From positions 1 to 64,000 of the forward strand of contig JAPKMW010000021.1 in assembly GCA_026645575.1 (NCBI GenBank): a DNA stretch of 64,000 nucleotides. The letters are read 5' to 3'. Origin of the DNA: Caldilineaceae bacterium. GTDB taxonomy: Bacteria; Chloroflexota; Anaerolineae; Caldilineales; Caldilineaceae. A program made the translations under genes and the position numbers. Positions within the stretch are counted from its first letter, which is position 1. Each line of letters starts with the position of its first letter. A model generated the notes under the pieces. The model had not been told where the DNA came from, did no database searches, and saw only the letters and a list, made by a program, of their open reading frames with translations. Positions 19,585-50,930 of the stretch are shown one piece after another.

Positions 19585-22500
19585 TCACCGTTGGATCAGG
19601 GGCAGATAGAGTCTACGCTCCGTTTGGGCGAAAGTAACCGTTGCCGTTGCTTGCAGGGCGCCAAGACTGGCTGTCACCTGCGCTACCCCTTTCGCCGTCG
19701 ATGCAGCCAGCGACGCAAGGGCCACACCATTGGCATCGGTTTGGGCCGAACTGCTGATGGAACCTAGAGACGTAGTAAAGTTGACCACCTGACCGACGAT
19801 GGGATTGCCAAACGCATCCATGACCCTAGCGCGCACGGTGGCGACGCTTTGCCCATCGGCAGCTAACGTCGTCGGGGTGATGATCGTTGTGAGCAAGGCT
19901 GGCGGTCCTGCTACAAAGGTAACGGTTGTCGCCTGGTTAATGGCGCCGATGCGGGCGGTCACAGTCGCGTTTCCTACAGTTGTTGGCGCAAGCAAGTTCA
20001 CGCTCGCCTGCCCGTTCAGATCAGTTTTTCCGCTGCTTGCCGGCAGCACGCCTACGGTTGTGGTGAAATGAACCATCTGGTTTGGCGTTGGATTGCCATT
20101 GGCATCTTTCACAATGACTGTGAGCGCGCTCGTGCTGCTGCCATCGGCGATGAGTTGACCCGGCGTCGCTGTCACGGCGAGGGTGGCGGCGGCGCCAATG
20201 AAAATTGTAAGATCAGTATGGCGATAGCCGGCGGTGGCATAAGGCGGCAGATCTGTGAGGGCTTGATTCGGATCGCCAGTGTGATAAATTAGCAGATTTT
20301 TCAGCAGATAAGGGCCATCCACGCCATGTGATAGGATCTGTGTGGCGCTAAAGGGCAAGGTAATGGTCTGGACACCCCCGGCGGTCACTGCCACGCTGGT
20401 TTCCACCCACTGAATTTCCTGGTCATGCTTGTCAACCAATCGCCCTTGGGCAATCACAACACCGTTGTTGCCCGACTGAATCGGCGCCATAAGGTTGAGA
20501 TAATCCTTCTGTCCATCTTGATCCATATCAGTGGCGGCATCGTGGAAATCACCGACAAGTGTTACCAACGGGAAAGCAAAGGCGGTCGCCGTGTACGGCT
20601 GGGTTGTGGCGGCCAGGCTTTGCTGATCAATTACCTCACCCGCCGGTGTCGTCAGGCGCACTTGCACCACTTGATAGGGACCGTCTACGCCATGTTGACG
20701 GATCAGGCCGCCCGGAAAATCAAGTGTGACCGTCGGATTGACGCCGGCCAGGAGATCGACATCTTTGGCGACTGCCGTAATCAACTGCCCGGCTTGATCG
20801 CTGAGGGAAGCGGAAAGCTGGTAAAGACCCGGCGTCGTGGCGCTGACTGTGCTAGTGACGCGTAGAAGATCATACAGACCGTCATGATTCAAATCAATGC
20901 CTTGGTCGGTGTAACCCCCGGCTGCAAGTTCAGCGCCGCCTGACTCAAATTGCGTCGCCGCGTAGGCAGTGGTGGTATAGGCTTGAGGCAGAAAGGCGAC
21001 GCGTTCCTGGTTGCTATCACGCACTTCCAGGTAGCGCAACGTATATGGCCCGTTCTGGCGTTGCCAGCGGATGCTTTTGCCATCAAAGGACAATGTCTGG
21101 GGGCCGGAAGTGGTGAAAGCGGTTGTGGCTACAGCGCCAGGAATGGCATTGCCAACGGGCGTAGATAACCAACCGACGAGGGTGTAGTTGCCGGCGCCAT
21201 TCACTTGAACGCCGACATCGATGTTGAGTGTATCAAACAGACCATTGCTATTGCTATCGACACCAGTATCGGCATAAGCGCCGGTGTAGGTAACGGCCGG
21301 CGCCAGGAAGATCGTCACGGCGTAGGCGGCGGTGGTATAGGCGTTATCGGCAAAGTCGGCAATGTCACCCTCGTCGCCAGTACGCAGTTCAATATGCACC
21401 AGCTTATAGGGGCCATTTACCCCTTGTAACCGCAGCAACTTGCCATCGAAATCGAGTTGCATCTGGTGGGCGCCGGCGCTCAACGTGGCGCTGGCATAGG
21501 CCCAGACAAGGTTGGCGCCTGCGCCACTTTGGAGCCAGCCGACCAGTTGATAGGTTGCCGGTGCGGTGACATTGATGCCAACCGTGATCCGCAAGGCTTC
21601 GTTTTGACCATCATTATTCGTATCTACACCAGTATCGGTATAGACGCCGGTCAACTGCGCCAAGTCAGGCAGGACAACTGCTGGCGTTTGGTATTGACTA
21701 GCTGCTGTGACCAAGCCACTGGCCGTATCCGCCTGCCCCTCCTCAGCCGCCGCAGCAGCGACAAAAGTCGGGTTGGACTGTTTGCCGGGATTGGCCCAAT
21801 CGTTCGCCACCACCCCTTTCTGATTATGCCCGGCAACGATGGCATCAAACTCATTGTCGCCATAATATTTGTAGACCGCGCTCTTCTTGTGCTCCAAGTC
21901 TTTGCTGTCGGTCTTGGTCTTATCCGTGCCAAAAGTGTCTTCGTACTCATTGGGCAATTTATCATAATAGGCATTGGTCGGCACTTGAAAATCAGCATCG
22001 GCTTTACCAACCCAAATACCGCCCGCTGCCCAGTTTACTTTGATCGTCGTGCGATGGCGCAACTCGTGGGCAATCACCTCGGCAACAGAGTCAACGCCTC
22101 TCACATTGCCATAGGTCGTCCCGTCGATGGTTAGGCCACCCGGATAATGGATTTCGGCGGCGGCGGGGCCTAGTTCTACTCTGTCGCTCGTGGGACTCCA
22201 GGCGCCATAACTGCCTGCGCCTTTGGTCGCGTCATAGGTCACTTTGGGGTCGGTCAGGCCCAGCACAGCACCATTAGTCCCCCAATAGTCGAACCAGTTA
22301 GGCTTGCCGTCGCCATTCTCATCGCCCTTTTTCTCGAAAAAGAGCTTAAACTCATACGCTTGACTAATTTGCCCGATCAAGCCGCTGCTCTTATTTTTGT
22401 AGATGACAGTTGCCTTGATTTTCTTTTTGCCGTGTGTGCCTTTGTCCGGTTTGTAAGTGTACGGGTTGCCCTCGCCCGGCTTCAGATCGCCCGACCAACT

Positions 22501-23310
22501 GACCTTGATCACTTCAAAATCGCTGGGCGTTTCCACCATCGCTTCGAGCTTGACATCATAGGTGGTCATCGGGTTGTTCACATCTTTACTGCCCATGACC
22601 TTGATCGCTTTGATCTGCGGTGCTTTCAGGAATACAGGCTGATCAAGCACATTCCCCCACTGCCAGGAACCCTCACAGGCATCGTTGGGATCGTGTAAGT
22701 AACCGACATTAGTGCGCAACCAGGTCGTTGTGGTAAAGGTGGCCGGAATGGTGAATTGGCTGATCCCCGTCATCGTGCCGTTATAGTTGATCGCCAGATA
22801 GCCGGTCAGATCCTTATCCATCACCCGCTCGGTCTCATCCCACTGTTTGTCGCCATTCCAATCTATCCAAGCATTCACATGCTCCGGGCTGGGATCATAG
22901 GAAGAACATTCCTGGCCGGCCACACACTTCTCCGGATTGGCAATAAAGACATTCACCTGCAACTTCATGGTGCCATCACCGTTTGGCGTTAAAATGGCAT
23001 TGGTGATCTTCTCGAATTGAGTGGAGCCGCCCGCCGATGGGCAATAGCCGGGCGCAGCGCCGGCCTCATTTTGTTGGCTGGCATTGATCGGATTGGGCTG
23101 TCCACGTCCGCTACTGCCACCGTTGTTGCTAGTTGCAGTGGCGGTTGGCGTAGGGTCAACGGCCGTTGCCGTTGATCGATCCGCCACCAGGACAAAGGCC
23201 ATAATAAGAAGCGTGCAGAGAAAGGCTTTGTTGAAAAGGGGCTGGCTCAGCCTATTTTCTTGTTTTACGTTTGCGAATAATAGGGCAGGAAAAACAGTGA
23301 ACCTTTGCAT
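19585..23310 (-). CDS. Large secreted protein with HELRH motif, four EF-hand-like repeats and Ig-like domains, 1241 aa
   Basis: Exported surface protein. Hydrophobic signal segment at about 27-50 behind a long N-terminal region. Residues 95-330 contain GEVED-like DWNGDxxWDE sequence. At 411-420 an AEVIAHELRHR helix gives HELRH (H415, E416, H419), the zinc-metallopeptidase signature; a third ligand is not obvious. From about 550 come four repeats of about 115-120 residues, each opening with a calcium-type loop (DTNNDGQNE, DSNSNGLFD, DLNHDGLYD, DMDQDGQKD) and containing GPYxLxxLxxR. Two invasin-like Ig domains follow (about 1040-1230, DANGNPTPNQMVHFTT...DAFGNPIVGQVVNFTT). The end is RRLYLPLIQR, the tail seen on other secreted proteins here. 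A 58-aa gene lies 16 nt upstream, probably co-transcribed. Protease activity is inference. Confidence 0.8.
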   Translation of the reverse strand: MQRFTVFPALLFANVKQENRLSQPLFNKAFLCTLLIMAFVLVADRSTATAVDPTPTATATSNNGGSSGRGQPNPINASQQNEAGAAPGYCPSAGGSTQFEKITNAILTPNGDGTMKLQVNVFIANPEKCVAGQECSSYDPSPEHVNAWIDWNGDKQWDETERVMDKDLTGYLAINYNGTMTGISQFTIPATFTTTTWLRTNVGYLHDPNDACEGSWQWGNVLDQPVFLKAPQIKAIKVMGSKDVNNPMTTYDVKLEAMVETPSDFEVIKVSWSGDLKPGEGNPYTYKPDKGTHGKKKIKATVIYKNKSSGLIGQISQAYEFKLFFEKKGDENGDGKPNWFDYWGTNGAVLGLTDPKVTYDATKGAGSYGAWSPTSDRVELGPAAAEIHYPGGLTIDGTTYGNVRGVDSVAEVIAHELRHRTTIKVNWAAGGIWVGKADADFQVPTNAYYDKLPNEYEDTFGTDKTKTDSKDLEHKKSAVYKYYGDNEFDAIVAGHNQKGVVANDWANPGKQSNPTFVAAAAAEEGQADTASGLVTAASQYQTPAVVLPDLAQLTGVYTDTGVDTNNDGQNEALRITVGINVTAPATYQLVGWLQSGAGANLVWAYASATLSAGAHQMQLDFDGKLLRLQGVNGPYKLVHIELRTGDEGDIADFADNAYTTAAYAVTIFLAPAVTYTGAYADTGVDSNSNGLFDTLNIDVGVQVNGAGNYTLVGWLSTPVGNAIPGAVATTAFTTSGPQTLSFDGKSIRWQRQNGPYTLRYLEVRDSNQERVAFLPQAYTTTAYAATQFESGGAELAAGGYTDQGIDLNHDGLYDLLRVTSTVSATTPGLYQLSASLSDQAGQLITAVAKDVDLLAGVNPTVTLDFPGGLIRQHGVDGPYQVVQVRLTTPAGEVIDQQSLAATTQPYTATAFAFPLVTLVGDFHDAATDMDQDGQKDYLNLMAPIQSGNNGVVIAQGRLVDKHDQEIQWVETSVAVTAGGVQTITLPFSATQILSHGVDGPYLLKNLLIYHTGDPNQALTDLPPYATAGYRHTDLTIFIGAAATLAVTATPGQLIADGSSTSALTVIVKDANGNPTPNQMVHFTTTVGVLPASSGKTDLNGQASVNLLAPTTVGNATVTARIGAINQATTVTFVAGPPALLTTIITPTTLAADGQSVATVRARVMDAFGNPIVGQVVNFTTSLGSISSSAQTDANGVALASLAASTAKGVAQVTASLGALQATATVTFAQTERRLYLPLIQR

Positions 23311-23326
23311 AGAATTTGCTCACCAA

Positions 23327-23503
23327 CTAGTACAGGGATGGGGCGCTGGCGACAAAGAGAATGTCATCACTTACATCTCGAATCTGCGCCACCATCTCGT
23401 CAATTTGCCCATCGGTGGATGCCTTGAGACCGGCCAGGGTAACATCTGTCGCCAGATCAGCAATTTTATGCTGACCACTAAATACGCTGGTAAAGTCGAT
23501 CAT
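23327..23503 (-). CDS. Small protein, 58 aa, upstream of the secreted metalloprotein
   Basis: Unrecognised but well supported: ATG at 23503 is preceded by AGAAGGAAAA, the frame of 59 codons ends at TAG 23327-23329, and the next gene starts 16 nt later on the same strand. The product begins MIDFTSVFSGQHKI and ends VASAPSLY; it is acidic and soluble with no signal peptide and no cysteine. Two amphipathic helices are plausible (HKIADLATDVTLAGL and DGQIDEMVAQIRDV). It could be a leader peptide, a chaperone-like or immunity-like partner of the large exported protein, or an independent small regulator. Confidence 0.65.
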   Translation of the reverse strand: MIDFTSVFSGQHKIADLATDVTLAGLKASTDGQIDEMVAQIRDVSDDILFVASAPSLY

Positions 23504-23576
23504 AATTTTCCTTCTCTGCGCATGGAACGCTCATCGCTGTTGATCCTCAAAACTAAGCAGGACTGTTATTCTATAA

Positions 23577-23585
23577 AGTATAGCA
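23577..23585 (-). promoter_or_regulatory. Extended -10 promoter for the 58-aa/metalloprotein pair
   Basis: On the minus strand TGCTATACT (extended -10, TGn plus 5 of 6 of TATAAT), about 75 nt before the ATG at 23503. No convincing -35. Confidence 0.4.
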
Positions 23586-23872
23586 CATTGCCCCCTCGTA
23601 CACACAGATTGGTCAACAATTTACACTTTGTGGTTTCCAGCAGAGTAAGACCAAAGGCCAGTTGGCTTTAGGCTTCCCTCATGCTGTCGCCGATCCGCTC
23701 TGGTTACCGTTATTTGCCCCATGATTGCAATACCTTTGCCCTATCTTCCCCTTACCTTCGAAACTTACCCGGTCTACCTCACGTTTTTTAGGCAAAATGG
23801 CGAAAACAGCAAGGTAGCCAATTGCCTTTCCACGTAGTCCGATTTTTGCCTTGCCTATCCGCTGTAAGTACA
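23586..23872. other. Gap between divergent genes
   Basis: Divergent promoter region. Apart from the extended -10 on the minus strand I see no repeat or gene; apparent plus-strand frames through here are antisense to the secreted-protein region. Confidence 0.5.
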
Positions 23873-25384
23873 ATGAACCTTATGTCTAACGAACGGCCAA
23901 ACTCTTGGTTTTCCCTATTGTCTGCCAAGTCACGCAAGGTGGACGCGCGCGACCAGCAGCGGCGCGCGGTAGCAGGACGCTCGACGCTGGATTGGGACTT
24001 TGGCGCGGAAAACACGCCATTGGAACGACGGACGGGTAGCCCCCTTACGTCGCCCAACCGCCATCGGCATCCTGACCCGGAACTATACCGCCCGGCCCGT
24101 CCTGAGCCGGTAGCGCCGACGCCCGTACCAACGCGTCAGTCGCCGCCGGAACTGCCGAATGATGGGCGCGCCCGCCGAGCAATGGCAACTCGTATGACGC
24201 TGGATGAAGCCTTGGATCACTGGTGGACCGATGGCGCCTTACCTTCGTTAGGACTTTTACGCGATGGTTTGTTGCTGTTGGAGGCCGGCTACTCGCTGGA
24301 TGAAGCGCAATCATCCTTTTTGTTGCGGGTTGCCTTACGACGCCAACGGGGGATGATTACGGCGCTACGGTATCAGACCGATCCAGATCGGACTGCCTTT
24401 CTGATCAAAGAGGCGGTGTTAGACCAGAAGCAACCTTTGCCGCCTAAACTGTTGCGCGATCTCCAGCGCGAGGATGAAAAGAGCGCCATCTGGCTGGATT
24501 ATCTCATCCATGATCTTGCCTATGAGGTGGGAGTAGCGCAGGGCAAGCGCCGCGAATTGGCGACTCGCGCCCTGGCGCAAATTCGCCCAGATGCCCAGGC
24601 ATGGTCGGCAACCGCCTATGCGACAACGACAACCCAGCCAGCCACGCCGCTTTCATACCGCTGGGGTTTGCGCTGGTTGTTATGGGCGCTCTTACTGTTG
24701 ATTGCCGTAATCAATTATGGTGTCCGCTCCCGCAGCTATGACCAGAATGTGCGCATCCCTGCCGGTAGCTATACCATTAGTGATCCACTAAGTGAAGGGC
24801 GGACACGGCCGGCGGTGGTCGCAGCCTATCGGATTGATCTAACCGAAGTGACCAATGGCGCTTATGCGCGCTGTGTCACGAATGGCAGTTGCGTGGCGCC
24901 CAACTCACCCGCCAGCGCAACGCGGGCGGACTATTACACCAATCCAGCCTATGCCGAATTTCCGGTTGTCAATGTAACCTGGGATAATGCCAACGCTTAT
25001 TGCATTTGGTTGGGGAAAGAACTACCCACCATCGAAGAGTGGGAGGTTGCCGCTAGTATTGCGCCCCTGACCCAGCGCACCTTTCTTTACCCGTGGGGCG
25101 ACCGTTTCGATCCGCGCTTTGTCAATGGCGGGAGCGCTGAGGATCGTGATACGCTGGCCGTTGGCTCGTTTCACCCGGTGGGCAATAGCTCCTTTGGGTT
25201 GCGGGATATGGCCGGCAATGTAGCGGAGTGGACGGCGTCGCCGTCGGCGGAATTGTTTGATGGGTTTGTCGTGAAGGGTGGTTCGTATCGCGATAGTGCT
25301 GATGCCTTGCGTTTAGCTGTTCAACAAAATTTTGTGCGTACAACCGCCGAACCGTGGCTTGGCTTTCGGTGTGTGAGTAAGTAA
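23873..25384 (+). CDS. Membrane-anchored formylglycine-enzyme-like (FGE-sulfatase) protein lacking the catalytic cysteines, 503 aa
   Basis: Three parts. Residues about 1-110 are polar and Arg/Pro-rich; about 110-230 form an all-helical domain (LDEALDHWWTDG, AGYSLDEAQSSF, LIHDLAYEVGVAQGKR) that I cannot name but which looks like an adaptor domain. One membrane helix at about 265-285 (WLLWALLLLIAVINYGV). Then an FGE/SUMF1-type C-type-lectin fold (about 290-503): IDLTEVTNGAY, WDNANAYCIW, ELPTIEEWE, GNVAEWT, GGSYRD and GFRCVSK at the end. The active-site CxxxxC of formylglycine enzymes (RCAAR region) reads RLAVQQN here, so the enzyme activity is probably lost and the domain likely binds something outside the cell. 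Start: ATG 23873 or 23882; neither has a strong ribosome site. Confidence 0.75.
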   Translation: MNLMSNERPNSWFSLLSAKSRKVDARDQQRRAVAGRSTLDWDFGAENTPLERRTGSPLTSPNRHRHPDPELYRPARPEPVAPTPVPTRQSPPELPNDGRARRAMATRMTLDEALDHWWTDGALPSLGLLRDGLLLLEAGYSLDEAQSSFLLRVALRRQRGMITALRYQTDPDRTAFLIKEAVLDQKQPLPPKLLRDLQREDEKSAIWLDYLIHDLAYEVGVAQGKRRELATRALAQIRPDAQAWSATAYATTTTQPATPLSYRWGLRWLLWALLLLIAVINYGVRSRSYDQNVRIPAGSYTISDPLSEGRTRPAVVAAYRIDLTEVTNGAYARCVTNGSCVAPNSPASATRADYYTNPAYAEFPVVNVTWDNANAYCIWLGKELPTIEEWEVAASIAPLTQRTFLYPWGDRFDPRFVNGGSAEDRDTLAVGSFHPVGNSSFGLRDMAGNVAEWTASPSAELFDGFVVKGGSYRDSADALRLAVQQNFVRTTAEPWLGFRCVSK

Positions 25385-25398
25385 AAGATTTAATTATA

Positions 25399-25446
25399 TT
25401 TCTTGCAAAAAGAGGCGTGCGCACGCACTCCTCTTTTTGCAAGAAA
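25399..25446. terminator. Strong hairpin with T/A-runs (bidirectional terminator shape)
   Basis: Arms tcttgcaaaaagag (from 25401) and its exact complement ending about 25444, with a self-palindromic gcgtgcgcacgc core. Fifteen nt past the stop of the FGE-like gene. The T5 run is inside the stem, not after it, so a terminator role is likely but not certain. Confidence 0.55.
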
Positions 25447-25491
25447 CACTACTAGACCATAGTCGCTACTAGTAATGGGGTTTTGATTATA

Positions 25492-26358
25492 ATGACAACG
25501 CAAAAGTTAGATACACTCGATCTGACGGCGGAAATCGGATTAGCTTCGACCTTGGCGCGGGAAGCTGCGACCATTGTCAATACCTTTTATGTTGGTTCGT
25601 CCGAAGTGCGCTACAAATCGCACAATGAACCGGTGACGGAAGCCGATCGCTCGGCTAATCTACACATTGTTTCACGCATTCAGGCTGAATTTCCCGACGA
25701 CGGCATTCTTTCCGAAGAGTCCAAGGATAACCTGAACCGGCTTCACAAGGAGCGCGTCTGGATCATCGATCCGCTGGATGGCACCAAAGAGTTTATCGCC
25801 CGTAACGGTGAATTCTCGATCATGATTGGCCTGGCCGTTGGCGGCCGCGCTGTCATGGGGGTCGTCATGCAGCCGGATCCGGGGCTACTTTATGTCGGCG
25901 CCGTGAATTATGGCGCTTACCTTCACGAAGAGGGGGAGCGCATCCCGCTGGTCGTGAGCGACCAGACCGACATCAGCCGCATGGTCATGGTGAGCAGCCG
26001 CAGCCACCGCCAGCAGATTGTGGATAAGGTGCGCAAAGATCTGCGCATTACTCGTGAGCGGGTGAGCGGCAGCGTTGGGCTGAAAGTGGGGCTGATCAGC
26101 CGCCAATTGGCCGATCTCTATGTTCATCCCAGCCCTGGCTGCAAAGAGTGGGACATCTGCGCCCCTCATGCCCTGTTGGAAGCGGCTGGCGGCCAGATCA
26201 CCGACTGTTGGGGCAACCCCATTGTCTTTAACAAGCGCGATGTGCGCGCCCACAATGGCCTGCTCGCCTCGAATGGTCAAGCCCACGATCAAGTTGTCGA
26301 AGTCGTCGGCGGCATCTGTGAAGAGTTCGGCTATAACCAGGACGACGGCTTTTGGTGA
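25492..26358 (+). CDS. cysQ: Inositol monophosphatase-family phosphatase, CysQ-like (3'(2'),5'-bisphosphate nucleotidase), 288 aa
   Basis: Mg-dependent, Li-sensitive phosphatase family. Metal and catalytic motifs are present: EPVTEADRSAN, GILSEES, WIIDPLDGTKEF and GCKEWDICAPHALLEAAGG. The TKEF variant of the DPLDGT motif is typical of CysQ, which removes the 3'-phosphate from PAP formed during sulfate assimilation. Length fits. ATG 25492 is taken as the start (frame open from TTG 25483); ribosome site is weak. Transcribed alone after a hairpin. An inositol monophosphatase role is the alternative. Confidence 0.85.
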   Translation: MTTQKLDTLDLTAEIGLASTLAREAATIVNTFYVGSSEVRYKSHNEPVTEADRSANLHIVSRIQAEFPDDGILSEESKDNLNRLHKERVWIIDPLDGTKEFIARNGEFSIMIGLAVGGRAVMGVVMQPDPGLLYVGAVNYGAYLHEEGERIPLVVSDQTDISRMVMVSSRSHRQQIVDKVRKDLRITRERVSGSVGLKVGLISRQLADLYVHPSPGCKEWDICAPHALLEAAGGQITDCWGNPIVFNKRDVRAHNGLLASNGQAHDQVVEVVGGICEEFGYNQDDGFW

Positions 26359-26387
26359 GCGGGTAGCGTAGAGCAAAGGTTGTGATA

Positions 26388-26504
26388 AGGCGAAATTAAT
26401 AATTAACGGAGAATGAAGAATTATTACTTGTTAGTACGTTCTGCCAACAGTTCGTCATTCGCAATTAATAATTAATTGTTTTCCATTAATTTTTAATTTC
26501 GCCC
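26388..26504. repeat. AT-rich palindrome of aattaat words
   Basis: Left arm from 26388 (aggcgaaattaataatta) and right arm ending 26504 (taatttttaatttcgccct) pair with interruptions; the interior carries gaatgaagaatta and its partner words. It fills the gap to the TIM-barrel/M23 gene. Confidence 0.75.
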
Positions 26505-26542
26505 TCTCATTCGTTCCGTAGGCATAGAACAGGGCGCAATCA

Positions 26543-29503: not shown

Positions 29504-29505
29504 TG

Positions 29506-29566
29506 CGGCAAGTGGCAGGTAGCAGATATTTGCCACTTGCCACCTGCCACCTGTTACTTGCTACAG
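29506..29566. repeat. gcaagtggcaggt palindrome
   Basis: The left side (29506-29525, ggcaagtggcaggtagcag) pairs with ttgccacttgccacctgcc and again partly with ctgttacttgctac on the right. It sits in the 75-nt gap between the two barrel genes. Confidence 0.8.
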
Positions 29567-29578
29567 ATTGAGTTTTGC

Positions 29579-34392: not shown

Positions 34393-37017
34393 TCACCGGT
34401 TCACCAGTGGGAGGAATAGCCAACTATCCCCGCTACCGGTTGGTATACAATCAACCAGGTAGGTGGCCTCTGTCGTCACAATGGTTCCGTCAGGTTGCTG
34501 GACTTGTGCGCTGTTGCGAAGCCGGGATTGCCCATCGGCATCTGGCGGTGGACAAGCGTTTACTTCCAGCTCATAGTAAAGCCAAATGGCTACTTCTCGA
34601 CGCAAGCGACCCTGCCACTCGATCCGCCCGCTTGGCCCTTCCTTGGGCAGAAAAGTGATGGCTAAGGGGGTGATCCCATCATAATCCCCCCCCAAGTCGT
34701 TACTAGATACCACGAATTGAGGTGGTCCGGCCAGCGTAACGCCAGGCGGCAGATTATTCTGAAACAGGGTGGTTGCCGGCCTTGTTCCGGTAGTTGGCTC
34801 TATGAAAAAACTAAATTCGGCTTTGCTGCCGATCTGCACAGTTGGTGTAATTTCATTATTTGTGGATTGTTGCAATGATACCTGAATCGGCTCTCCTTGC
34901 GGCAAGCCGTCAACGAGATAATCCTCGGTTTCGCCAATTTGGAAGAAGGCTGGGTGCCGTGGGCCGCGCCCATCGGCCAGTGCGATAGGGGTAGGTCGCA
35001 GCGCCCGTTGTTCACTCAAGGTAAAGCGCACCCAGGCGCGTGGCGCTGCGTTCGGATTGTAGACAAGTTTGGTTGGAATTCGCAGATCCAGAAAATCGCC
35101 TGCGGCAATCTGACTGGTGTCGATGGCCCAATCCTGCACGATCCACTCAAAGGATTTGCCACCGAGTGGGTTCGCACTGGCAGGGCAGTCACCGCTGTCC
35201 TGCCAATCGCCGTCACGATTCCCGTCAAACCAAACATTGAGCCAGATCTCTTCAAGGCTAGTCGGCAAAGCACTACGGCTCACGCGCACCAGAAGCGTTG
35301 ATGTTTCACAATTGAGCATTGGAACAAACGGATTTTTCCAACCATCATCATTAAAATCAAAATCTGCAACATCTTCTATACCGTTGTCACCATTGTTAAG
35401 AATATTTGTATCGGTACGCCATGGTTCACTTTCATCATTCAGCATTAGATCCGCATCAACCTCAGCGTCAATGTCACTGCCTAGCCAAAAATGGTCGATA
35501 CGATGGGTTGGCCCGCTGCCTTCACCAGGCGGTGTACCCTCCCATACGGTAGGAAAGCGCCCCAAAACGCCGGTTTCTTGATAAGCGGTATTGTTTAGCC
35601 CATGATGATTACTCTCACTATCGGGGGCGTCGCCAAAGTCAGTCCAGGGTTGAGTTTCCATACAATTAACTGCAACTGCGCTTTGGACAGTTGGATTGAT
35701 TGGGGTGATCAAGCCTGTGTTAAAAACGGTGGCCTGGCTGGTGATCACGGCGCCACAGCGAACACGGTCTTGTATCCGCAATTGAAAACGCAGTTGCATT
35801 GTACTACGTTCAGGCACAACCCCACTCCAAGTCTGTTCCTTCGTAGTCGGATTATAGATAAGTGGGCCGTTAGTCGCCGTGGCGCTCCCTGGCACATAAA
35901 TTGCGCCTATAGGAATGGCGCTAAAAACTTGGAAGATGTCGGTCGGTAAGTCGCTTGGATTGGTAATGGTCAGTTGATAATCAATAATGCCACCGGGGCT
36001 TGTTTCAGTCAGATTGCTTTGGCTGCTAAATTGTAGTACCTCGATCCTTGGGCAGCGATACTCAACCTTGGCGACCGCAGAATGTACTTCCCATAGGGTG
36101 GGCGCAATGAGATACGCGTGACTGTTGAGCGTTTTACAGGTTCCAAAGCGGGTAATCTGGAGAGTATAGGTAAGCAACACGTTGCCCTGGGGGGCAATTG
36201 CGCCTTGCCAATAAACTGCATGTTGTTCATAACGATATGTTGCCTTACCATGCGAAGCCCTCAAGGTGTCGGTTAAATAAGTTGTTTCGTGAGGCAAGGG
36301 CAGCGTCGTTGTGAGGATTAGATTGTTGACGGTTACTGGGCTACTGTTGTGAATCGCAACTTGATATTCGATTACACCAAAAAAGGCTGTTGTCGTCACG
36401 TTACTAGTGTGCGTCAGTTGTAAAGCGGGAATACAGTTCAATTCAACAAATCGTGTGTTTGTAATGTCTGGAGCAAATTGCGGTAGATGGATCTCGCCTG
36501 TCATGGTAATGTTATCTGGGCAATTACTTTCCTCTTTCACCTTCACTGCAAATCGGATATGGACTATTGTCTTTGGCGCAAGTTTACCTGCCCATTTAAT
36601 ATTATTAAATGGATCATAGTAGGCGCTAGATTGTGTAGTTTGCGTAATGAGCGTTGAGATGAACTGAGTTGTCACCGTGTCGGATACATAGGTGGTGTTC
36701 TTGGGGATTCGAACCACAGCCGTAAAATTGGTTGTTGTTATTGTTGCATTGTTGGTAACTGTCATCGTGTAACGAAGCGTACTACCAGGAAAGGTCGAGG
36801 TGACATCAGATTGCATTCGAACGGTAAGTCCATCGTTATTAGTCAAATCATAAACCGGCAGCCATTGCTCCGCGTCCATGGTGGCGGCGGTAACGTGATC
36901 TGTTTGCACAAGGGAGAGCAGCAGAAAGCCTGCTACCAGCATAATTACGGTGATAGTTGCCGAAAGAAAGAGCAATACTTTGCTTCGCCCTATTCCATTC
37001 TGTTTAGATAACATCAT
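34393..37017 (-). CDS. Secreted surface protein with DUF11-like and GEVED domains, 874 aa
   Basis: Exported protein. Start chosen at ATG 37017 because GGGGA lies 8 nt before it; the frame is open to 37038. Signal/membrane helix at about 12-36 (VLLFLSATITVIMLVAGFLLL). Three or four DUF11-type beta-sandwich repeats (LRYTMTVTNNA, IEYQVAIHNSS, IDYQLTITNPS), then a GEVED domain (about 460-720) with DFGDAPDS, NGIEDVADFDFNDDGW and WFDGNRDGDWQDSGDC, likely calcium-loaded, and another sandwich. Ends SWLFLPLVNR, the shared C-terminal tail. Convergent with scpA, only 6 nt apart. Probably part of the sheath or outer surface; no enzyme motif seen. Confidence 0.8.
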   Translation of the reverse strand: MMLSKQNGIGRSKVLLFLSATITVIMLVAGFLLLSLVQTDHVTAATMDAEQWLPVYDLTNNDGLTVRMQSDVTSTFPGSTLRYTMTVTNNATITTTNFTAVVRIPKNTTYVSDTVTTQFISTLITQTTQSSAYYDPFNNIKWAGKLAPKTIVHIRFAVKVKEESNCPDNITMTGEIHLPQFAPDITNTRFVELNCIPALQLTHTSNVTTTAFFGVIEYQVAIHNSSPVTVNNLILTTTLPLPHETTYLTDTLRASHGKATYRYEQHAVYWQGAIAPQGNVLLTYTLQITRFGTCKTLNSHAYLIAPTLWEVHSAVAKVEYRCPRIEVLQFSSQSNLTETSPGGIIDYQLTITNPSDLPTDIFQVFSAIPIGAIYVPGSATATNGPLIYNPTTKEQTWSGVVPERSTMQLRFQLRIQDRVRCGAVITSQATVFNTGLITPINPTVQSAVAVNCMETQPWTDFGDAPDSESNHHGLNNTAYQETGVLGRFPTVWEGTPPGEGSGPTHRIDHFWLGSDIDAEVDADLMLNDESEPWRTDTNILNNGDNGIEDVADFDFNDDGWKNPFVPMLNCETSTLLVRVSRSALPTSLEEIWLNVWFDGNRDGDWQDSGDCPASANPLGGKSFEWIVQDWAIDTSQIAAGDFLDLRIPTKLVYNPNAAPRAWVRFTLSEQRALRPTPIALADGRGPRHPAFFQIGETEDYLVDGLPQGEPIQVSLQQSTNNEITPTVQIGSKAEFSFFIEPTTGTRPATTLFQNNLPPGVTLAGPPQFVVSSNDLGGDYDGITPLAITFLPKEGPSGRIEWQGRLRREVAIWLYYELEVNACPPPDADGQSRLRNSAQVQQPDGTIVTTEATYLVDCIPTGSGDSWLFLPLVNR

Positions 37018-37703: not shown

Positions 37704-37770
37704 GCCACTACGCACTCTACACCCCATATACCCACTATGTACCTAATAACGCAAGGCCAAGGAGGTTGTT

Positions 37771-39056: not shown

Positions 39057-39071
39057 TAGAACATACATTTC

Positions 39072-39204: not shown

Positions 39205-39235
39205 TGTAGGCACAGCAACCAAGGATTTAACAATC

Positions 39236-41731: not shown

Positions 41732-41744
41732 CAAGATTAAGGCT

Positions 41745-41777
41745 AAAAACGCCCACCAATACGGTGGGCGTTTTTTT
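41745..41777 (+). terminator. Rho-independent terminator of clpC
   Basis: GC-rich 9-bp stem cgcccacc/ggtgggcg with 4-nt loop, preceded by A-run and followed by T7. Fourteen nt past the clpC stop. Confidence 0.92.
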
Positions 41778-41812
41778 AGTGATTGTCGGTAGCATTTATC
41801 TTTTGCACACTA

Positions 41813-41821
41813 TGATATAAT
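41813..41821 (+). promoter_or_regulatory. Extended -10 promoter of the DUF1703-type gene
   Basis: TGATATAAT is a perfect extended -10. Start near 41828, about 50 nt before the ATG at 41880. No -35 needed for this class and none seen. Confidence 0.5.
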
Positions 41822-41879
41822 AATAGCGACTGTGTTGCCGTGTGTGAAGCGTGGGACGACAACGAACCGGAGGCAGGCG

Positions 41880-43604: not shown

Positions 43605-43615
43605 AAGCTCCTCGC

Positions 43616-44548: not shown

Positions 44549-44614
44549 GGTGTGATTCCTTTTGTCTCTTTCTATTTTGTGTTAATCGAGTCAACTGTGT
44601 AAGTCCTGCTGCGG

Positions 44615-45574
44615 TTACAACGTCACTAACCATTGGCAAAGTGACGCTAACTGTTGCTCACTGGTCAAATTTGCGGCATTGCTCATTTGTCCACTTTGGA
44701 GTTGTAGAAAGATCTCTTCGGCCATTGCTGGCGCAATCGTGGCAGCAACAAAGAAGGTGTGTGGCGCATGACCATCAGCCGCAAAAGCATTTCTTGTCCG
44801 CAGTAGTGCAGTATTGGCTGTTTTCCAGTGTTCATCGGCGCCGGCTGGGTCAATACCACCTTTGAGTTCGCCAAGAGCAAGGTAGGCATTCGATTTGTAA
44901 TGAATCGAATTTTGATTTCCTACCATAAGTTCAGTTGGCGTTGCTTCCAACAGGCAGAGGTCGACGTTCTTCTTCACGGCGGGAACATTCAAGTTATAAA
45001 CAAGCGTTCGCTGTTGTTGTTTCGATTCCCAGTGCAACCCACGGATATACCGTTCAAGATCGGGGATACTCATGTCGCCTGCTTGCCAAGTGCGGGTTGC
45101 ACCATTTAACCAGAGGAATGGTTTTGCTTGCAATGAGAGGGTCGAAATAATGGTTCTTGTTAGCTTGTGTTCTGCCAAGATACCGGCAAGATTGCGCATT
45201 CTGCCACCCAGTGTATCACCTTTGGTTAGAAGGAAGCGAAAAACTAGCTCGTCGACAAAGTTTGTACCAGCCGGCGCAAGAAAGTTGTCGATTAATCCTT
45301 TGATGGCTTCGCGTTGATCATCATTGGTCAAATAGTTGCGGGCTTTGTCGGAGACCCCAGCGGCTGTTAGGATTGCTGGCTTCAATGTCTCTATGTGAAG
45401 TAGGTCCGCCGGTTTTGCAATCTGTAAAGCAAGCGCTTTTAATGTTTTGGCCTCTTCAATAAATGGAGTGGCCTGCCGATTCTTTTCCAGTGCCAACCGA
45501 ATGAATCCAGCTCTCACTTCTGCGTATGGCGTTACCAAATCTTTGGCTGAAAGGAGATGATTTTGAAAGCTCAT
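44615..45574 (-). CDS. Type II restriction endonuclease, AvaI/BsoBI family, 319 aa
   Basis: Opening FQNHLLSAKDLVTPYAEVRAG and VDELVFRFLLTKGDTLGGRMRNLAG match what I recall of AvaI and BsoBI, which cut C^YCGRG. The PD-(D/E)XK core is intact: D205 in NVDLCLLEA, E236 and K238 in GELKGG, H249 in GADEHW; the E-x-K and the 11-residue step to His equal those of BsoBI (E240, K242, H253). Length close to BsoBI. Second gene of a two-gene unit behind the methyltransferase, 39 nt apart. Specificity C^YCGRG is by family, not proven. Confidence 0.88.
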   Translation of the reverse strand: MSFQNHLLSAKDLVTPYAEVRAGFIRLALEKNRQATPFIEEAKTLKALALQIAKPADLLHIETLKPAILTAAGVSDKARNYLTNDDQREAIKGLIDNFLAPAGTNFVDELVFRFLLTKGDTLGGRMRNLAGILAEHKLTRTIISTLSLQAKPFLWLNGATRTWQAGDMSIPDLERYIRGLHWESKQQQRTLVYNLNVPAVKKNVDLCLLEATPTELMVGNQNSIHYKSNAYLALGELKGGIDPAGADEHWKTANTALLRTRNAFAADGHAPHTFFVAATIAPAMAEEIFLQLQSGQMSNAANLTSEQQLASLCQWLVTL

Positions 45575-45613
45575 CGTTCTTTTGATTCCATTGTTTGTTT
45601 GGTGGAGATGGCG

Positions 45614-47128
45614 TTAGGGCTTCTGCCAAATCGTAATGCTCTTGCGTAGCTCTTGCCGACCAAATTTGCCCATCTGCTGGCTACTGTTGCCTTTGCGCTG
45701 GGGGAGTACATAAATTTTAACAGGGATGAAGCCAGCTTGTTCGGCAAGATTTGTACTAATCAAATCAACTGGAATCGCTTCGCCTGCGTAGCGCACATTG
45801 TCATTAACAAAGGCGACGTGGGCGCCACGACGACAAACGCGATGTAATTCACGGTAGATGAAGGTAAGTTCTGCGAAGTACTGCTCGATCATTTTTAGCA
45901 CGCCACGATTGTTAATTTCTCCGCGTTCGTTCCGCATGGCAAGTGCTAAATTAACTTCATTGAGTGCATCATTCTTTTTAATAATACTGATTGTCTTTTC
46001 ATAGTCATCAATGCGGCCTATCATCCGGTAATACGTTTCTAATTCAGTAAACTTGGGCCGATTTTCAACCGTACAAGAAAGCAAACCTTGGCGCAAGCCA
46101 AAAATGTTATTGTCTACATTCAAATATGCTAATTCCAGCGCATAAGTGCGGGTATAATCATAGCGGTTGGCATAGGGTGGCGATGTAATGACGGCATCGA
46201 ATTGATTTGGCGCCATCTCCGGTAACACATATAGGCTATTGCCCTTGATTAGTTGTTGATTACTGGCTGTTGGTTGCTGTTGTTGTAACTCGTGAACATC
46301 ACGGATGATACTGTCGAACCGACGCAGTAAGGATTGCTTCACTGACGGTAGAATTCCTTTATCAATACCCTCAACTGGTTCTTGACCGGCAGCTATCCGT
46401 GTTTTGTTTCTTGCTAAAATTTTCCCTGCTCGGCTGTCCCAACGCAAATACTGACCGTCTTTGCGCGTATAGCTCACATCTTCCAAAATGCTCATCAAGA
46501 TCGCTTGGCATAGCGTTTTCGCAGCGTCACTAATGGCTAGCGTTTCAAACCAAAGTTTGTAATCAACGATTGCCCTTTCTGTTTCGATAGGGAAAGCGCC
46601 CTCGGTAATGGTCAAATGGGGAAAAGGCATGTTTGTTACAGGCGGGTCGGACTGCCTAATCAGCTCTCGAACAGCGCAAAGTTCTTCCAATTGGTAATCA
46701 AAAATGTGGGCTTTGACTGTCCAGGCAAGGTGGCAATGGGGTAACAATTCGATGCCAACAGCATTGAAACCATGTAGTTTTGCTTCTAAGAGTGTCGTAC
46801 ATGAGCCAGAGAATGGATCGAGAATTTGTTGTGTGTTATCGATGTTGAATTCGCCTAGGAGAATTTCAACTAACTGTGCTGAGAAACCTTCTCGATACTT
46901 GAACCAATTATGCAAAGTTTCTATCTTGTTCGCCTGAAAACTTACGATACGACGACTAAATTTAGCGGTTTCTTCTAGTAAACTTCCGTAGGCGTCTTCT
47001 AGGGCGCACCTTGCCCTTTCTTCACAAGTGCGATTGTGAGAGAAGGAATAGTTCAGGAGCGGTTTCCTGTCTGTCTCAACAACTTGGTCGTCAATAGGCA
47101 GGGATAATTGTAACATTGCGTTTCCCAT
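45614..47128 (-). CDS. DNA methyltransferase (TSPPY type), cognate of the AvaI/BsoBI-like enzyme, 504 aa
   Basis: SAM-dependent DNA methylase protecting the host from the restriction enzyme next door. Motif I-like ILDPFSGSCTTLLEA at about 100 (SAM binding), catalytic TSPPYANRYDYTR at about 312; SPPY with Ser is typical of N4-cytosine methylases. The order motif I before motif IV and large insert between them leave room for target recognition. First gene of the unit, as expected so that protection precedes cutting. Starts possible at 47128 or four codons later; ribosome sites are weak in both. GC is lower than in surrounding genes, a sign of transfer. Confidence 0.88.
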   Translation of the reverse strand: MGNAMLQLSLPIDDQVVETDRKPLLNYSFSHNRTCEERARCALEDAYGSLLEETAKFSRRIVSFQANKIETLHNWFKYREGFSAQLVEILLGEFNIDNTQQILDPFSGSCTTLLEAKLHGFNAVGIELLPHCHLAWTVKAHIFDYQLEELCAVRELIRQSDPPVTNMPFPHLTITEGAFPIETERAIVDYKLWFETLAISDAAKTLCQAILMSILEDVSYTRKDGQYLRWDSRAGKILARNKTRIAAGQEPVEGIDKGILPSVKQSLLRRFDSIIRDVHELQQQQPTASNQQLIKGNSLYVLPEMAPNQFDAVITSPPYANRYDYTRTYALELAYLNVDNNIFGLRQGLLSCTVENRPKFTELETYYRMIGRIDDYEKTISIIKKNDALNEVNLALAMRNERGEINNRGVLKMIEQYFAELTFIYRELHRVCRRGAHVAFVNDNVRYAGEAIPVDLISTNLAEQAGFIPVKIYVLPQRKGNSSQQMGKFGRQELRKSITIWQKP

Positions 47129-47242
47129 CGTTCATCTGAATTTGCTGACATAGTTCCCCATCTATCATAACACATCTGTTCTGGACGCCCTAGTTGCAAA
47201 TTGATTGCATTTCCTGCGTTTGTGCCGCTGTATCGAAAGGGC

Positions 47243-47298
47243 AGCGAGTAAAAACAAGAGCTACATTGCGATCAATGTGGCCCTTGTTTTTACTCGCT
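47243..47298. terminator. 26-bp hairpin downstream of the Thr/Pro-rich gene
   Basis: Left arm from 47243 (agcgagtaaaaacaag...) and right arm to 47298 pair at 24 of 26 positions with a 4-nt loop. The 16-bp outer part is perfect and contains T5/A5 runs. Twenty nt past the minus-strand stop at 47318; fits a terminator working in either direction. Confidence 0.65.
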
Positions 47299-47317
47299 AT
47301 GCCTTCACGCTATCATC

Positions 47318-48076
47318 TCAAAACTGACAATTTACCGTCGTTCCGATATATCTCGTTACCTCTGTTTCTGTCAATGTGTAGACCGCCGTACATTGGCCAG
47401 TGCTGTCACATTTTGCCAATCTACCGGGTGAGCGGGCAGTAGTTTCATTGCTAAAGATGTTGGTTAAGGCGCTAAGCGGTTTTACTATCTCATTCACTGG
47501 CCCCCGGAATTCGGTTGGCTCAAAGAAGAAGGAGGCGGCTGATGGTGCCGGTTCGGTGATGGTGACGGTTAGGTAAAGCCAGACACTATTATTAAGCGCC
47601 GGCTCTTGCGGGCAGGAAAAGGTGACATCGGGAAAGTTGATCGATGTTGGCTGCGCAGTTGGGGTTCTAGTGGCGGTCGCGCTGGCTGGTGGTGTGCTGG
47701 TTGCTGTGTTCGTGGCAGTTGGCGTCTGGATTGGTGTTGCGGTCGTGCTGGGTGTTGGTGTGGCGACAGGCGTCGTTGTACTCGTGGCTGTCGCGACGGC
47801 AGTTGGTGTTGCAAGGGGAGCCGTTGCTGTCGGTGTAGGCGGCAGGGTTGCTGCTGCGGTGGGCGCTGTGCTAATGAGGGTCGGCGTCAACGTCGGGACA
47901 GTGGTTGGGGATGAGGCGCCACCCTGGGTAATGACCGGCAAAAAGAGCGTGAATGCACGGTTGGCTGCACCATCCGCATCGCCTGGTCTTGTTTCTGCCG
48001 AGTGCGCCGGTACAAACGACCACCTGATCGCAATGGCAACGAGGCCAACAAGCACAGAAATTGCTATGCGCTTCAT
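47318..48076 (-). CDS. Secreted protein with Thr/Pro-rich mucin-like linker, 252 aa
   Basis: Signal peptide (ISVLVGLVAIAI... to about residue 27), then LFLPVITQGG (about 44-53), a variant of the tail motif of the other secreted proteins but placed before the linker. Residues about 55-145 are a Thr/Pro/Ala low-complexity stretch, likely O-glycosylated or extended. The C-terminal 105 residues form a small domain with four Cys (FSCPQEP, AKCDSTGQC, NCQF). Ribosome site AAAGG before ATG 48076. Family not recognised. Confidence 0.7.
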   Translation of the reverse strand: MKRIAISVLVGLVAIAIRWSFVPAHSAETRPGDADGAANRAFTLFLPVITQGGASSPTTVPTLTPTLISTAPTAAATLPPTPTATAPLATPTAVATATSTTTPVATPTPSTTATPIQTPTATNTATSTPPASATATRTPTAQPTSINFPDVTFSCPQEPALNNSVWLYLTVTITEPAPSAASFFFEPTEFRGPVNEIVKPLSALTNIFSNETTARSPGRLAKCDSTGQCTAVYTLTETEVTRYIGTTVNCQF

Positions 48077-48230
48077 AAAGAACCTTTCTTTTGCTGAGAT
48101 AACGTTTGCTTCACAGACACACCCTTTTGAACACAGAAAATATCAAAAGGATGTGCTGTGTAAGACTATATCATCAGCGTTCTTTGCTGAATAGCGCGCA
48201 ATATTGCCGATTGTTTCCTGACCAACGTTT

Positions 48231-50930
48231 TTATCGGTTACTGACTGGCAGATAGAATTCAAGAATCGGTCGCCCAATGCCGGCTGGCAGGTCAAAGGTA
48301 CGCCCGCCTCCTTCGGCTGGGCGCATGGCCGCGCGTTCTTGTAACAGGAAGAACGCCGTGGCGACGGGGGGATTGCCCACTTGTACTTCATAGGCGCCCG
48401 GATTCGCTGCCTGCGTAGTCAGGTAGACGATAAACTCGCCCGCCGGGTTGACTTGCAAGGTATCAGTAACCGTGACGCCATTGACCAACAAAGGCAACGT
48501 TCCACTATAGGGCAAGCCGCTGCCGATGAGCGTCAGCGTACTGCCGCTCTGCGCCGTCACATAACTAAGTGTTACCTTGGGTGGGCGGCTTTCTGTCAAC
48601 GGCGCCAGGGTTGGACTTTGGGTCAGGGCGCCGGCGCCTAGTTGCCCATCGCTATCCCGTCCCCAACAGAGGGGGCGATTGCCTGTCACCAGGACACAAG
48701 TGTGATAACCGCCCACGTGAAGGCTGAGAACATTGGATACCAATCCGCTAACGGGAGTTGGCGCCGTGCGTAGCGTCGCCGTGCCGTCGCCCAGTTGGTT
48801 GTACTCATTATTACCCCAACAAACGACACTGCCGCCGCTCACTAGGGCGCACGTGTGGACAATCCCCGCTTCTACCGCCGTGGCTGCACCGGACAAGCCA
48901 TTCACCGCCACCGGTTGCAATTGCCCGATGCGCGTGCCGTCCCCCACCTGCCCGCTATTGTTAGCCCCCCAACAGCGAAGCGACCCATCGGTCAAAGTGG
49001 CGCAAGTGTGAGCGCCACCGGCATCGATCCTGCTGACGCCGGCAAGAGTGCTAACATCCACGGGCGTTGGCCGGTTAAAAGTCGTGCCGTCGCCAAGCTG
49101 ACCGGCGACGTTCGCTCCCCAACATTTGACCCCACCACTTTGCAGCAGCGCACAGGTATGCTCAGCGCCGGCGGTGATTGCCACAACGCCACTGCTCAAC
49201 CCCGCAACGCTGACTGGAACGCTAGCAGCCGTCGTTGTCCCGTCGCCCAGTTGACCGGCAGTGTTGATACCCCAACACTTAACGCCCCCCGGCTGCACCA
49301 GGGCGCAGGTATAGTTGTCACCGGCGGCCAACGCCACGGCGGCTCCGCCCAAACCAATCACATCGGCGGGAACCAACTGCTCGGTGGTCGAACCGTCGCC
49401 CAACTGACCGGATGCGTTACTGCCCCAACATTTGACGCCGCCATTTTGCGACAACGCACATGTGTGTTCCGCACCCAATACAACCGCGGTAACGCTAGTT
49501 AACCCTGTCACATGGATCGGCTGGGTGCGGGGGAGTTGGGTGCCGTCGCCCAATTGTCCATCGCTATTCCGGCCCCAACATTGCAAGGTGCGCAATGGGG
49601 TGATCAGACAGGTGTGATAGCGCCCGCCGACAATGGCTGGAATGCCAGTAACCGGCGCTGAACCATCGCTCAAGAAGGCGAGTTGGAGGAACTTCGGCAC
49701 GCTGGCAAGACCGGGCGCATCGCGACCAAGTTGCCGTGAACGATTGCTGCCCCAACAGTAGGCAAGATTGTTCTTGAAAAGGGCGCAAGCGTGATCCAGA
49801 CCGGCGGTTAAGGCAATGGCATCGCCGGGGACGCCGACAACGCGCAGCGGCGCCCGGCTACTGTCCACCGCGCCGGTTCCCAATTGTCCACGATTGTTGC
49901 TGCCCCAGCAGTAGAGATCGCCGTCAATCGCCAGCGCGCAGGTGTGGTAGCGTCCAGCGGCGACGGTGGCGATCACGTCGCGCAGGTTGTTCACCAACAC
50001 GGGACTGTTTTTGTCTTCACGCGTGCCGTCGCCGAGTTGACCACGGGCATTATCGCCCCAACATTGGACACGCCCATCGTTCAGGATGGCACAGGTATGA
50101 TCGAGGCCGGCGGCAATACTTTTGGCCGGTCCAGCCAGTCCGCTGACGACGGTGGGGAGATTACGACTGATCGTCGTCTGGTCGCCCACCTGTCCATTGG
50201 TGTTGTCCCCCCAACACTGCACGGCGCCACTTTGCAGCAAGGCGCACGTATGGTTGGCCCCTGCCGTCAACGCCGTGACAGCACCGGCCAAGCCCGTGAC
50301 TACGACCGGTGTTGACTGATTGACATTGGCGCCATTGCCCAACTGCCCACTGCCATTGCGTCCCCAACATTGCACGCTGCCTGATTGTAACAGCGCACAG
50401 CTATGACCGCCGCCGGTCGTGATGGCCTTCACAACTTCGGCCAAACCGGTCACGGCGACGGGGACGCGCCGTTCACTGACGCCACCATCGCCCAATTGCC
50501 CCGTGCTGTTATTGCCCCAACAGACCACGCCACCGGTATTTTGTAACGCACAGCTATGGCTCCCATTGGCGGCCAGCATGAGGACACCACTCGGCAACCC
50601 CACCACGGCGACCGGGGGACGATAGGCAAAGGGGGAGCCATCACCGGCCTGACCATCGCCATTGGCGCCCCAGCAGAGAACGCCGCCGCCCGTGGTTAAG
50701 CCACAACTGTGTTCATCACCGGCAACGAGCGCCGCGAAAGGGGTGGCAGCGCTGACCAAACCGGCCGCTGCTGTTAAATCCTCTGTATCGCTGGTTGGCG
50801 CCTGGGCAAGCACAGCGGTCTGTAGCACAAAAAGCACACTGATCGTAAGCCCGATGCTACTCAGGATGAGACCACCGTTGCGCAAACGCTGCCAGTAGGG
50901 TAAATGTTGAAGCGTATATTGTAATCGCAT
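48231..50930 (-). CDS. Secreted RCC1-repeat protein, 899 aa
   Basis: Signal/anchor helix at about 18-42 (GGLILSSIGLTISVLFVLQTAVLA), then a run of 14 RCC1-type repeats of about 48-51 residues, each with the pattern H-(T/S)-C-A-L...G-x-(V/L)-x-C-W-G-x-N...G-Q-(L/V)-G-D-G. Each repeat carries two Cys, so the propellers should be disulfide-stitched. Fourteen repeats fit two seven-bladed propellers. A small beta-sandwich follows (about 765-850, VTAQSGSTLTLIGSGLP), then EFYLPVSNR at the end, the shared tail. Likely surface-bound binding protein; ligand unknown. Confidence 0.88.
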   Translation of the reverse strand: MRLQYTLQHLPYWQRLRNGGLILSSIGLTISVLFVLQTAVLAQAPTSDTEDLTAAAGLVSAATPFAALVAGDEHSCGLTTGGGVLCWGANGDGQAGDGSPFAYRPPVAVVGLPSGVLMLAANGSHSCALQNTGGVVCWGNNSTGQLGDGGVSERRVPVAVTGLAEVVKAITTGGGHSCALLQSGSVQCWGRNGSGQLGNGANVNQSTPVVVTGLAGAVTALTAGANHTCALLQSGAVQCWGDNTNGQVGDQTTISRNLPTVVSGLAGPAKSIAAGLDHTCAILNDGRVQCWGDNARGQLGDGTREDKNSPVLVNNLRDVIATVAAGRYHTCALAIDGDLYCWGSNNRGQLGTGAVDSSRAPLRVVGVPGDAIALTAGLDHACALFKNNLAYCWGSNRSRQLGRDAPGLASVPKFLQLAFLSDGSAPVTGIPAIVGGRYHTCLITPLRTLQCWGRNSDGQLGDGTQLPRTQPIHVTGLTSVTAVVLGAEHTCALSQNGGVKCWGSNASGQLGDGSTTEQLVPADVIGLGGAAVALAAGDNYTCALVQPGGVKCWGINTAGQLGDGTTTAASVPVSVAGLSSGVVAITAGAEHTCALLQSGGVKCWGANVAGQLGDGTTFNRPTPVDVSTLAGVSRIDAGGAHTCATLTDGSLRCWGANNSGQVGDGTRIGQLQPVAVNGLSGAATAVEAGIVHTCALVSGGSVVCWGNNEYNQLGDGTATLRTAPTPVSGLVSNVLSLHVGGYHTCVLVTGNRPLCWGRDSDGQLGAGALTQSPTLAPLTESRPPKVTLSYVTAQSGSTLTLIGSGLPYSGTLPLLVNGVTVTDTLQVNPAGEFIVYLTTQAANPGAYEVQVGNPPVATAFFLLQERAAMRPAEGGGRTFDLPAGIGRPILEFYLPVSNR

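Follow-up and report, generated by a model that had tools for sequence, protein, structure and literature searches.

An eight-residue peptide used at either end of exported Chloroflexota proteins looks like a label for placement in the cell envelope

A short peptide, found directly before the stop codon of unrelated exported proteins in the form [VIL][FY]LP[LVI][VI]x[RK] and in some others near the N-terminus, is a real feature of many, but far from all, Chloroflexota genomes. It has the appearance of a label, not described before, that assigns proteins to the cell envelope. A description of the motif was not found in the literature searched, most subscription journals and all of bioRxiv lying outside the scope of that search. 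Our leading hypothesis, preferred to the analogy with C-terminal sorting signals, is put forward tentatively: the tag could well be an end-independent linear docking motif that is bound by a common envelope partner. The open question addressed is how proteins are held on the surface of Chloroflexota, which have no outer membrane and in which SLH domains were hit in one of 38 genomes (the tag-poor G077). A tag readable from sequence would name envelope proteins and give a bait for the receptor, would allow surface proteins to be predicted across a phylum known mostly from metagenomes, and would add a type of address tag usable at either end of a protein.

The motif was noticed in a stretch of 64,000 nucleotides of a Caldilineaceae contig (JAPKMW010000021.1), which was analysed as a whole and is called the window here. 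Four exported proteins on its minus strand carry it, and all four sequences are as the first-pass annotation had described them. P0001 (19585..23310), of 1241 aa with GEVED, DUF4785_3rd and two Big_1/invasin-D3 domains, ends in RRLYLPLIQR, with the tag LYLPLIQR (19588..19611) directly before the stop codon. In the same way P0002 (34393..37038), a DUF11-repeat protein of 881 aa, ends in SWLFLPLVNR, with the tag LFLPLVNR at 34396..34419, and P0003 (48231..50930), an RCC1-repeat protein of 899 aa, ends in EFYLPVSNR, with the tag FYLPVSNR at 48234..48257. No other ORF of 60 aa or longer in any of the window's six frames showed the C-terminal pattern. The fourth protein, P0004 (47318..48076, 252 aa), has an N-terminal copy, LFLPVITQ (47924..47947); LFLPVITQGG starts at residue 44, about 15–20 residues past the apparent signal peptide (its cleavage site judged without a prediction tool) and ahead of a Thr/Pro linker. 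The C-terminal part of P0004 had no Pfam match, and the Pfam scan found no domain common to the four proteins. Within P0001 there is also an HExxH metalloprotease-like motif, IAHELRH, with no Pfam peptidase match, and a BsobI-type restriction endonuclease and a DNA methyltransferase (44615-47128) adjoin the gene of P0004.

The C-terminal consensus was tabulated from 78 tagged proteins, whose selection constrained positions −7 to −3 and −1 and left −8 and −2 unconstrained. Position −8, free of selection, is L, I or V in 60 of the 78; −7 is Y in 43 and F in 35; L and P occupy −6 and −5 in all 78; −4 is L (40), V (12), I (11), M (10) or F (5); −3 is mostly V (36), I (31) or L (8); −2 is free; and −1, selected on R/K, is R in 76 and K in 2. 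The earlier wording, by which these are the very last residues, fits the majority of copies and is too strict for the rest: a few end at least one residue later (LISKN, ILRN, LVLKGY), some relatives of P0003 among the variants ending in YLPLVLKGY, YLPLVLKAY or FLPLVLMNFK, and N-terminal and double copies exist as well (see below).

Whole genomes were scanned in DNA for [FY][LF]P-h-h-x-R-stop (h-h being the two hydrophobic positions), with the same pattern reversed as the control. In a scan of 12 genomes, matches against reversed matches in four genomes related to the window were 39 and 3 in G004, 22 and 2 in G005, 17 and 1 in G006, and 16 and 1 in G008, the remaining eight giving 0–8 against 0–5; the Caldilineaceae chromosomes G001, G002 and G003 gave 0, 0 and 1 against 2, 1 and 3. 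Across 301 Chloroflexota genomes, 119 have at least one match, most have few or none, and 17 have at least eight, a number that the reversed control never reached, its highest value being 7 (a hand count from the table). Strict matches number 39 in G004, 34 in G272, 33 in G279, 31 in G234, 29 in G073, 23 in G082, 21 in G036, 19 each in G178 and G258, 15 in G024, 12 each in G180 and G307, 10 in G116, and 8 each in G146, G210, G226 and G250. A K-ending form adds 14 matches in G180, 8 each in G004 and G082, 6 each in G005 and G116, and 5 in G122, with controls of 0–3 in these six; G180 thus holds 12 R-form and 14 K-form matches against controls of 1 and 3. In most of the 50 genomes searched, the K-form was absent or near its control (1 against 6 in G034). 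Chance as the origin of the motif is excluded by the reversed-pattern control.

Longer stretches were also sampled without regard to single genes. In 380 kb of one G234 contig, picked for its size and holding one listed match, 105 of 285 complete ORFs had a signal by the detector; two ORFs end in the motif by regular expression (YLPFIRR, YLPLIRH; 3798 and 621 aa) and two more by eye (LLPLVRR, VFVPLLLR; 2966 and 1178 aa). In G001, 20 spaced stretches totalling 400 kb held 101 signal-bearing ORFs, none of which ends in the motif, and a broader form of it was found in none of 291 ORFs. The MAG of Litorilinea aerophila (G010) has 8 strict matches against 3 in the control. Twenty of its loci were taken, 17 with DUF11 hits, five with a strict match and two with both; in these, 14 of 38 ORFs of at least 450 aa end in a broad form, and 19 of the 38 have the motif within their last 60 residues, compared with 8 of 911 other sixty-residue windows of large ORFs and one of 41 shorter ORFs. 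In this genome A, S or T frequently stands at position −4 (IFLPTVGR, LFLPAVVR, LFLPSVVR). Strict counts are therefore minimum values, the term "tag-poor" is to be read loosely, and profile tests that compare tag-rich with tag-poor genomes draw mainly on the tag-positive genomes.

The kinds of protein that carry the tag were followed in stretches taken around matches from G004, G005, G006, G008, G180, G234, G146 and G250, in which one listing gave 47 tagged ORFs (window included) and a second gave 60. Combined with the window, first-scan loci and further stretches, these yielded 906 complete deduplicated ORFs, 91 of them tagged. A signal peptide was called by a crude detector in 78 of the 91, against 310 of 815 untagged ORFs; put the other way, 78 of 388 ORFs with a signal are tagged and 13 of 518 without one. 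The 13 exceptions are partly accounted for: L105 and L120 have a signal by eye, L237 and L243 are preceded in another frame by a start that resembles a signal, and L111 and L203 begin less than 80 bases from a contig end. No such account was found for L121, L125, L137, L140, L208, L233 and L235, five of which (L121, L125, L140, L208, L235) have Pfam hits often seen on exported proteins and two of which (L137, L233) have no Pfam hit. Of 292 exported proteins, 75 have the core motif within their final 15 residues (0.56 in shuffles), a proportion that is not a genome-wide rate because most loci were chosen for matching the pattern; across the middle of these proteins its frequency is close to that of the shuffles (12 against 10.5). 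The motif is concentrated on proteins of exported type.

Tagged exported proteins are long, with a median of 815 aa against 327 aa for untagged ones, and a crude lipobox matched two of the 78, compared with 32 of the 190 untagged exported proteins that have no further helices, which sets them apart from bacterial lipoproteins. Such long proteins, rarely with a lipobox, would suit an alternative that we hold to be unlikely, i.e., that the tag is a signal for a late export step, read by an extracytoplasmic chaperone, a channel or a layer-crossing machine that moves large proteins through inner and outer layers, the tag having no role afterwards. It would also suit a member of the Caldilineae with several layers beyond the membrane, as described in PMC13319060. 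No candidate machine was found for such a step, however, and small exported proteins are tagged too (L138 of 142 aa, L217 of 132 aa and L210 of 152 aa).

That the tagged proteins are unrelated, as had been claimed from three examples, holds on the larger sample. Sixty of the 78, chosen by length (152 to about 1,290 aa), contain 86 Pfam families, none of them in more than five proteins, which rules out a tag confined to one protein family. SdrD_B, subtilases, fn3, SpaA, beta-helices, propellers, clostripains, cadherin-like and Big domains, and CAP are among them; SLH and Por_Secre_tail-type T9SS domains (the tag itself being of eight residues) are not among the 25 of these 86 families that were listed. 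NCBIfam matches (E <= 0.001) include families named for LPXTG, PEP-CTERM, GlyGly and MYXO-CTERM anchored proteins; they indicate shared domains, not membership, and 25 of 60 families were listed, without cut-offs. Taken together, the profile places the tag on proteins whose counterparts elsewhere bear an anchor.

The diversity of families also bears on the possibility, very unlikely in our estimate, that the motif is an ordinary structural element, i.e., a terminal strand or an N-terminal clamp of each protein's own domain. Its strand-like composition would agree with this, as would its place shortly ahead of the catalytic domain in nearly all listed members of a hydrolase family (see below). 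On the other hand, the tag is often preceded by acidic or Thr/Pro linkers, and distant relatives of that hydrolase family carry it at different ends. In AlphaFold2 models the motif seems to lie outside the predicted fold, low confidence not being proof of disorder: residues 891-899 of P0003 are without a strand and have a pLDDT of 52 against a mean of 90.1, and in P0159, a member of the hydrolase family, the motif-bearing residues 41-50 are coil with a pLDDT of 63 (mean 93.8), the blocks from residue 61 on reaching 90 or more. On the predicted coil and the 86 families, a last strand of one single domain was rejected, a possibility that the first-pass annotation had named as fatal to its idea of a tag. 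The P0159/P0125 hydrolase family itself is closest in fold to Pseudomonas aeruginosa PslG (5bx9).

The motif is conserved in relatives of the proteins that carry it. Among the best 120 of 7964 RCC1 relatives of P0003, the strict ending occurs in 43, a looser ending in 30 (about 20 of them genuine by eye) and none in 44; three others (P0019, P0040 and P0060, of unstated taxon) have a membrane-helix tail in place of the tag. An alignment of 44 (P0003 included), picked from the best 120 for full-length likeness after their ends had been seen, gave identities of 0.91 at Y893, 0.98 at P895 and 0.82 at R899, with 0.77 for the L, whereas the five residues ahead of the tag are only 0.20-0.55 identical. 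Just upstream, EGxG (873-876) and P882 are conserved as strongly, so that conservation in this family is not confined to the tag. A conserved peptide that seems not to be needed by the fold is what would be expected of something recognised by another molecule.

A copy near the N-terminus had been taken as the same motif, and this was borne out: it is kept in all seven other listed homologues of P0004 despite differing flanks, as LFLPVISQ, L[FY]LPLIDL or IFLPLIDY. More generally, the core lies in the 47 residues past the signal in five of 333 exported proteins without further helices, against 0.89 in shuffles, a count of five being reached in none of 500 shuffles; two of the five carriers are paralogues and one is P0004. 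A further case is the glycoside hydrolase P0125 (PF00150), with 710 relatives. Of the 120 best listed, unpicked, 116 have a readable leader, and the motif stands ahead of the catalytic domain in 104 of these, most of the other 12 having a variant of it (MLP, VLP or WLP, for example). In 68 aligned members, picked after the sequences had been seen, Pro is present in 68, Y/F in 62, L in 54 and [VIL] in 50, followed by [LIV], [VI], x and [NKSR], most flanking leader columns being 0.1-0.5 identical; these column preferences match those of the C-terminal form.

The motif can also change ends. L207 of G008 and L230 of G234, which are only distantly related to the hydrolase (31-32% identity across 209 and 258 residues), have no N-terminal copy and end in IYLPLVAR and HYLPLVGR, respectively; two further distant relatives, L224 and L233, have the motif at neither end. 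In the fusions P0178, P0180 and P0243 it lies between a propeller-type part and the hydrolase, so that "terminal" is a tendency. L095, L133, L298, L299 and L306 each have a pair of copies close to the C-terminus, spaced by about 20-30 residues; the scan behind this had no control, and of the seven proteins it listed, L169 (copies far apart) and L218 (copies nearly overlapping) were dropped. L298 (G010:C42) and L299 (G010:C134) are giant ORFs that each end in two copies, the former with a frame of 5433 aa (5072 aa examined) and 20 DUF11 hits, the latter of 5603 aa, reaching the contig end, with one DUF11 hit.

These arrangements weigh on the original proposal of a processed C-terminal signal comparable to LPXTG or PEP-CTERM. 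In its full form, this alternative states that a sortase or other transpeptidase recognises LP as the core, cleaves the tag and links it covalently to the envelope, the basic residue at the end serving as a minimal retention signal; we regard it as improbable. LPXTG substrates likewise have a C-terminal tag with an LP core on unrelated exported proteins, the aromatic-LP core resembling the start of LPXTG. The tag differs in having no TG, with LP[LVI][VI]x[RK] in place of the LPxTG pentapeptide, and in having neither a cytosolic basic cluster nor a membrane helix, the absence of the latter having been noted correctly at the outset: the stop codon follows four residues after LP. With PEP-CTERM proteins, found together with EpsH by profiling (PMC1569441), it shares a short stretch of C-terminal homology, present on many large exported proteins within a lineage and absent in some relatives, P0019, P0040 and P0060 having their membrane-helix tails instead; it differs in having neither PEP nor a helix. 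A signal that is cut at the C-terminus should not turn up at the N-terminus, in two copies or between domains, whereas a docking peptide can occur in all of these ways; the conserved N-terminal copies, the double copies and the inter-domain copies therefore speak against processing of this kind, and the docking motif is preferred to it.

The genomes were also searched for a reader of the tag. Sortase (PF04203) was hit in 20 of 21 genomes with at least eight strict matches, which in itself would favour a covalent attachment, and was as common in the others (27 of 29), the tag-poor genomes being hand-picked from the genome scans and impure as a class. No sortase hit was found in G001, G002 or the tag-rich G180, the completeness of G180 being unstated, and sortase is unlikely as an obligatory partner. 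Exosortase (PF09721) was hit in 3 of 21 tag-rich genomes and 4 of 17 others from the same hand-picked class; as a partner it was rejected, with no hit in 18 of the 21. The suggestion of a co-occurring transpeptidase, followed for these two families, thus failed for exosortase and for sortase gave presence without tracking. The chromosomes G001 and G002 have no hits for the strict tag, sortase or exosortase. A protein in G234 (L234 5913, minus strand) with LPHAG, a C-terminal helix and a basic tail is the sole one with an LPXTG-type C-terminal helix in the examined tag-rich loci by our own filter; as only one was found, sortases are without obvious substrates there, which again would favour sorting of the tag itself, as would the choice-of-anchor Q matches (NCBIfam) in 3 of the 60 tagged proteins. 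That domain is named for its varied C-terminal anchors. Overall, the idea of a tag was supported and the analogy with C-terminal sorting was not.

Among the genes beside tagged ones, grouped by blastp into clusters (45 listed) and named by eye, no partner was found, the clusters being mostly ABC transporters, response regulators, dehydrogenases, other general families or tagged proteins themselves. A single set stood out as recurring: a cassette of a sigma-70-like factor, a small protein, a TPR-CHAT protein of about 1005 aa and then a tagged gene, found at L126 (1320-5652), L132 (3652-8091) and L190 (2795-7161), with Pfam run on two of the three; being present at three loci in two genomes, it cannot be general machinery.

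The docking motif would work as follows. With [VIL][FY]LP[LVI][VI]x[RK/N] on a flexible end of a large Sec-exported protein, an unfolded, hydrophobic, strand-prone peptide would be presented after export and bound by a common envelope partner, which might be a layer protein or a wall-bound receptor. Unrelated enzymes and adhesins would then share one location, none of them needing a lipid, a membrane helix or covalent attachment to stay there. SLH domains and dockerins are docking modules that place unrelated exported proteins on a common scaffold from either end; they are folded domains, whereas the tag is eight residues in predicted coil. The cargo-loading peptides of encapsulins are short, unfolded terminal peptides on unrelated cargo that dock in a groove of the shell, and the tag resembles them in being a short, unfolded terminal peptide on unrelated proteins, the difference being that encapsulin cargo and shell are cytosolic and the tagged proteins are exported. 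Several observations count against docking: the exact terminal preference and the basic last residue are strong in the C-terminal form, L224 and L233 are without the motif, some copies lie between fused domains, and EGxG and P882 are conserved equally. The terminal basic preference is easier to explain by recognition of a free C-terminus, for which it is the best argument.

The envelope in which such a label may act has been described for Litorilinea aerophila (PMC13319060, 2026), in which peptidoglycan is accompanied by inner and shared outer layers and by a lattice-like protein layer; that study left open what the inner, outer and protein layers are made of, cites similar layers in C. aggregans and attributes the polar hooks of L. 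aerophila to a DUF11 giant, the hook protein of the species being GhlA (WP_141610714.1). A layered envelope offers layers for addressing, and the tag may be what addresses proteins to them. In a bolder extension, possible though on balance doubtful, the peptide would be a phylum-wide, non-covalent addressing code for a multilayered envelope free of LPS, with a repeated layer receptor that binds the octapeptide on either end of its cargo, giant DUF11 proteins included, and a linear motif replacing sortases, SLH domains and lipid anchors.

Elsewhere in the window, TCAD9 (ternary complex associated domain 9) genes lie at 3786-5390 and 12213-13811, near GAF/histidine-kinase genes, and the two regions look like copies of one signalling cassette. 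The best relatives found mostly bear the name Caldilineaceae; at 80% identity, the window's MiaB-like gene has a counterpart in G004 (L001), a Caldilineaceae MAG.
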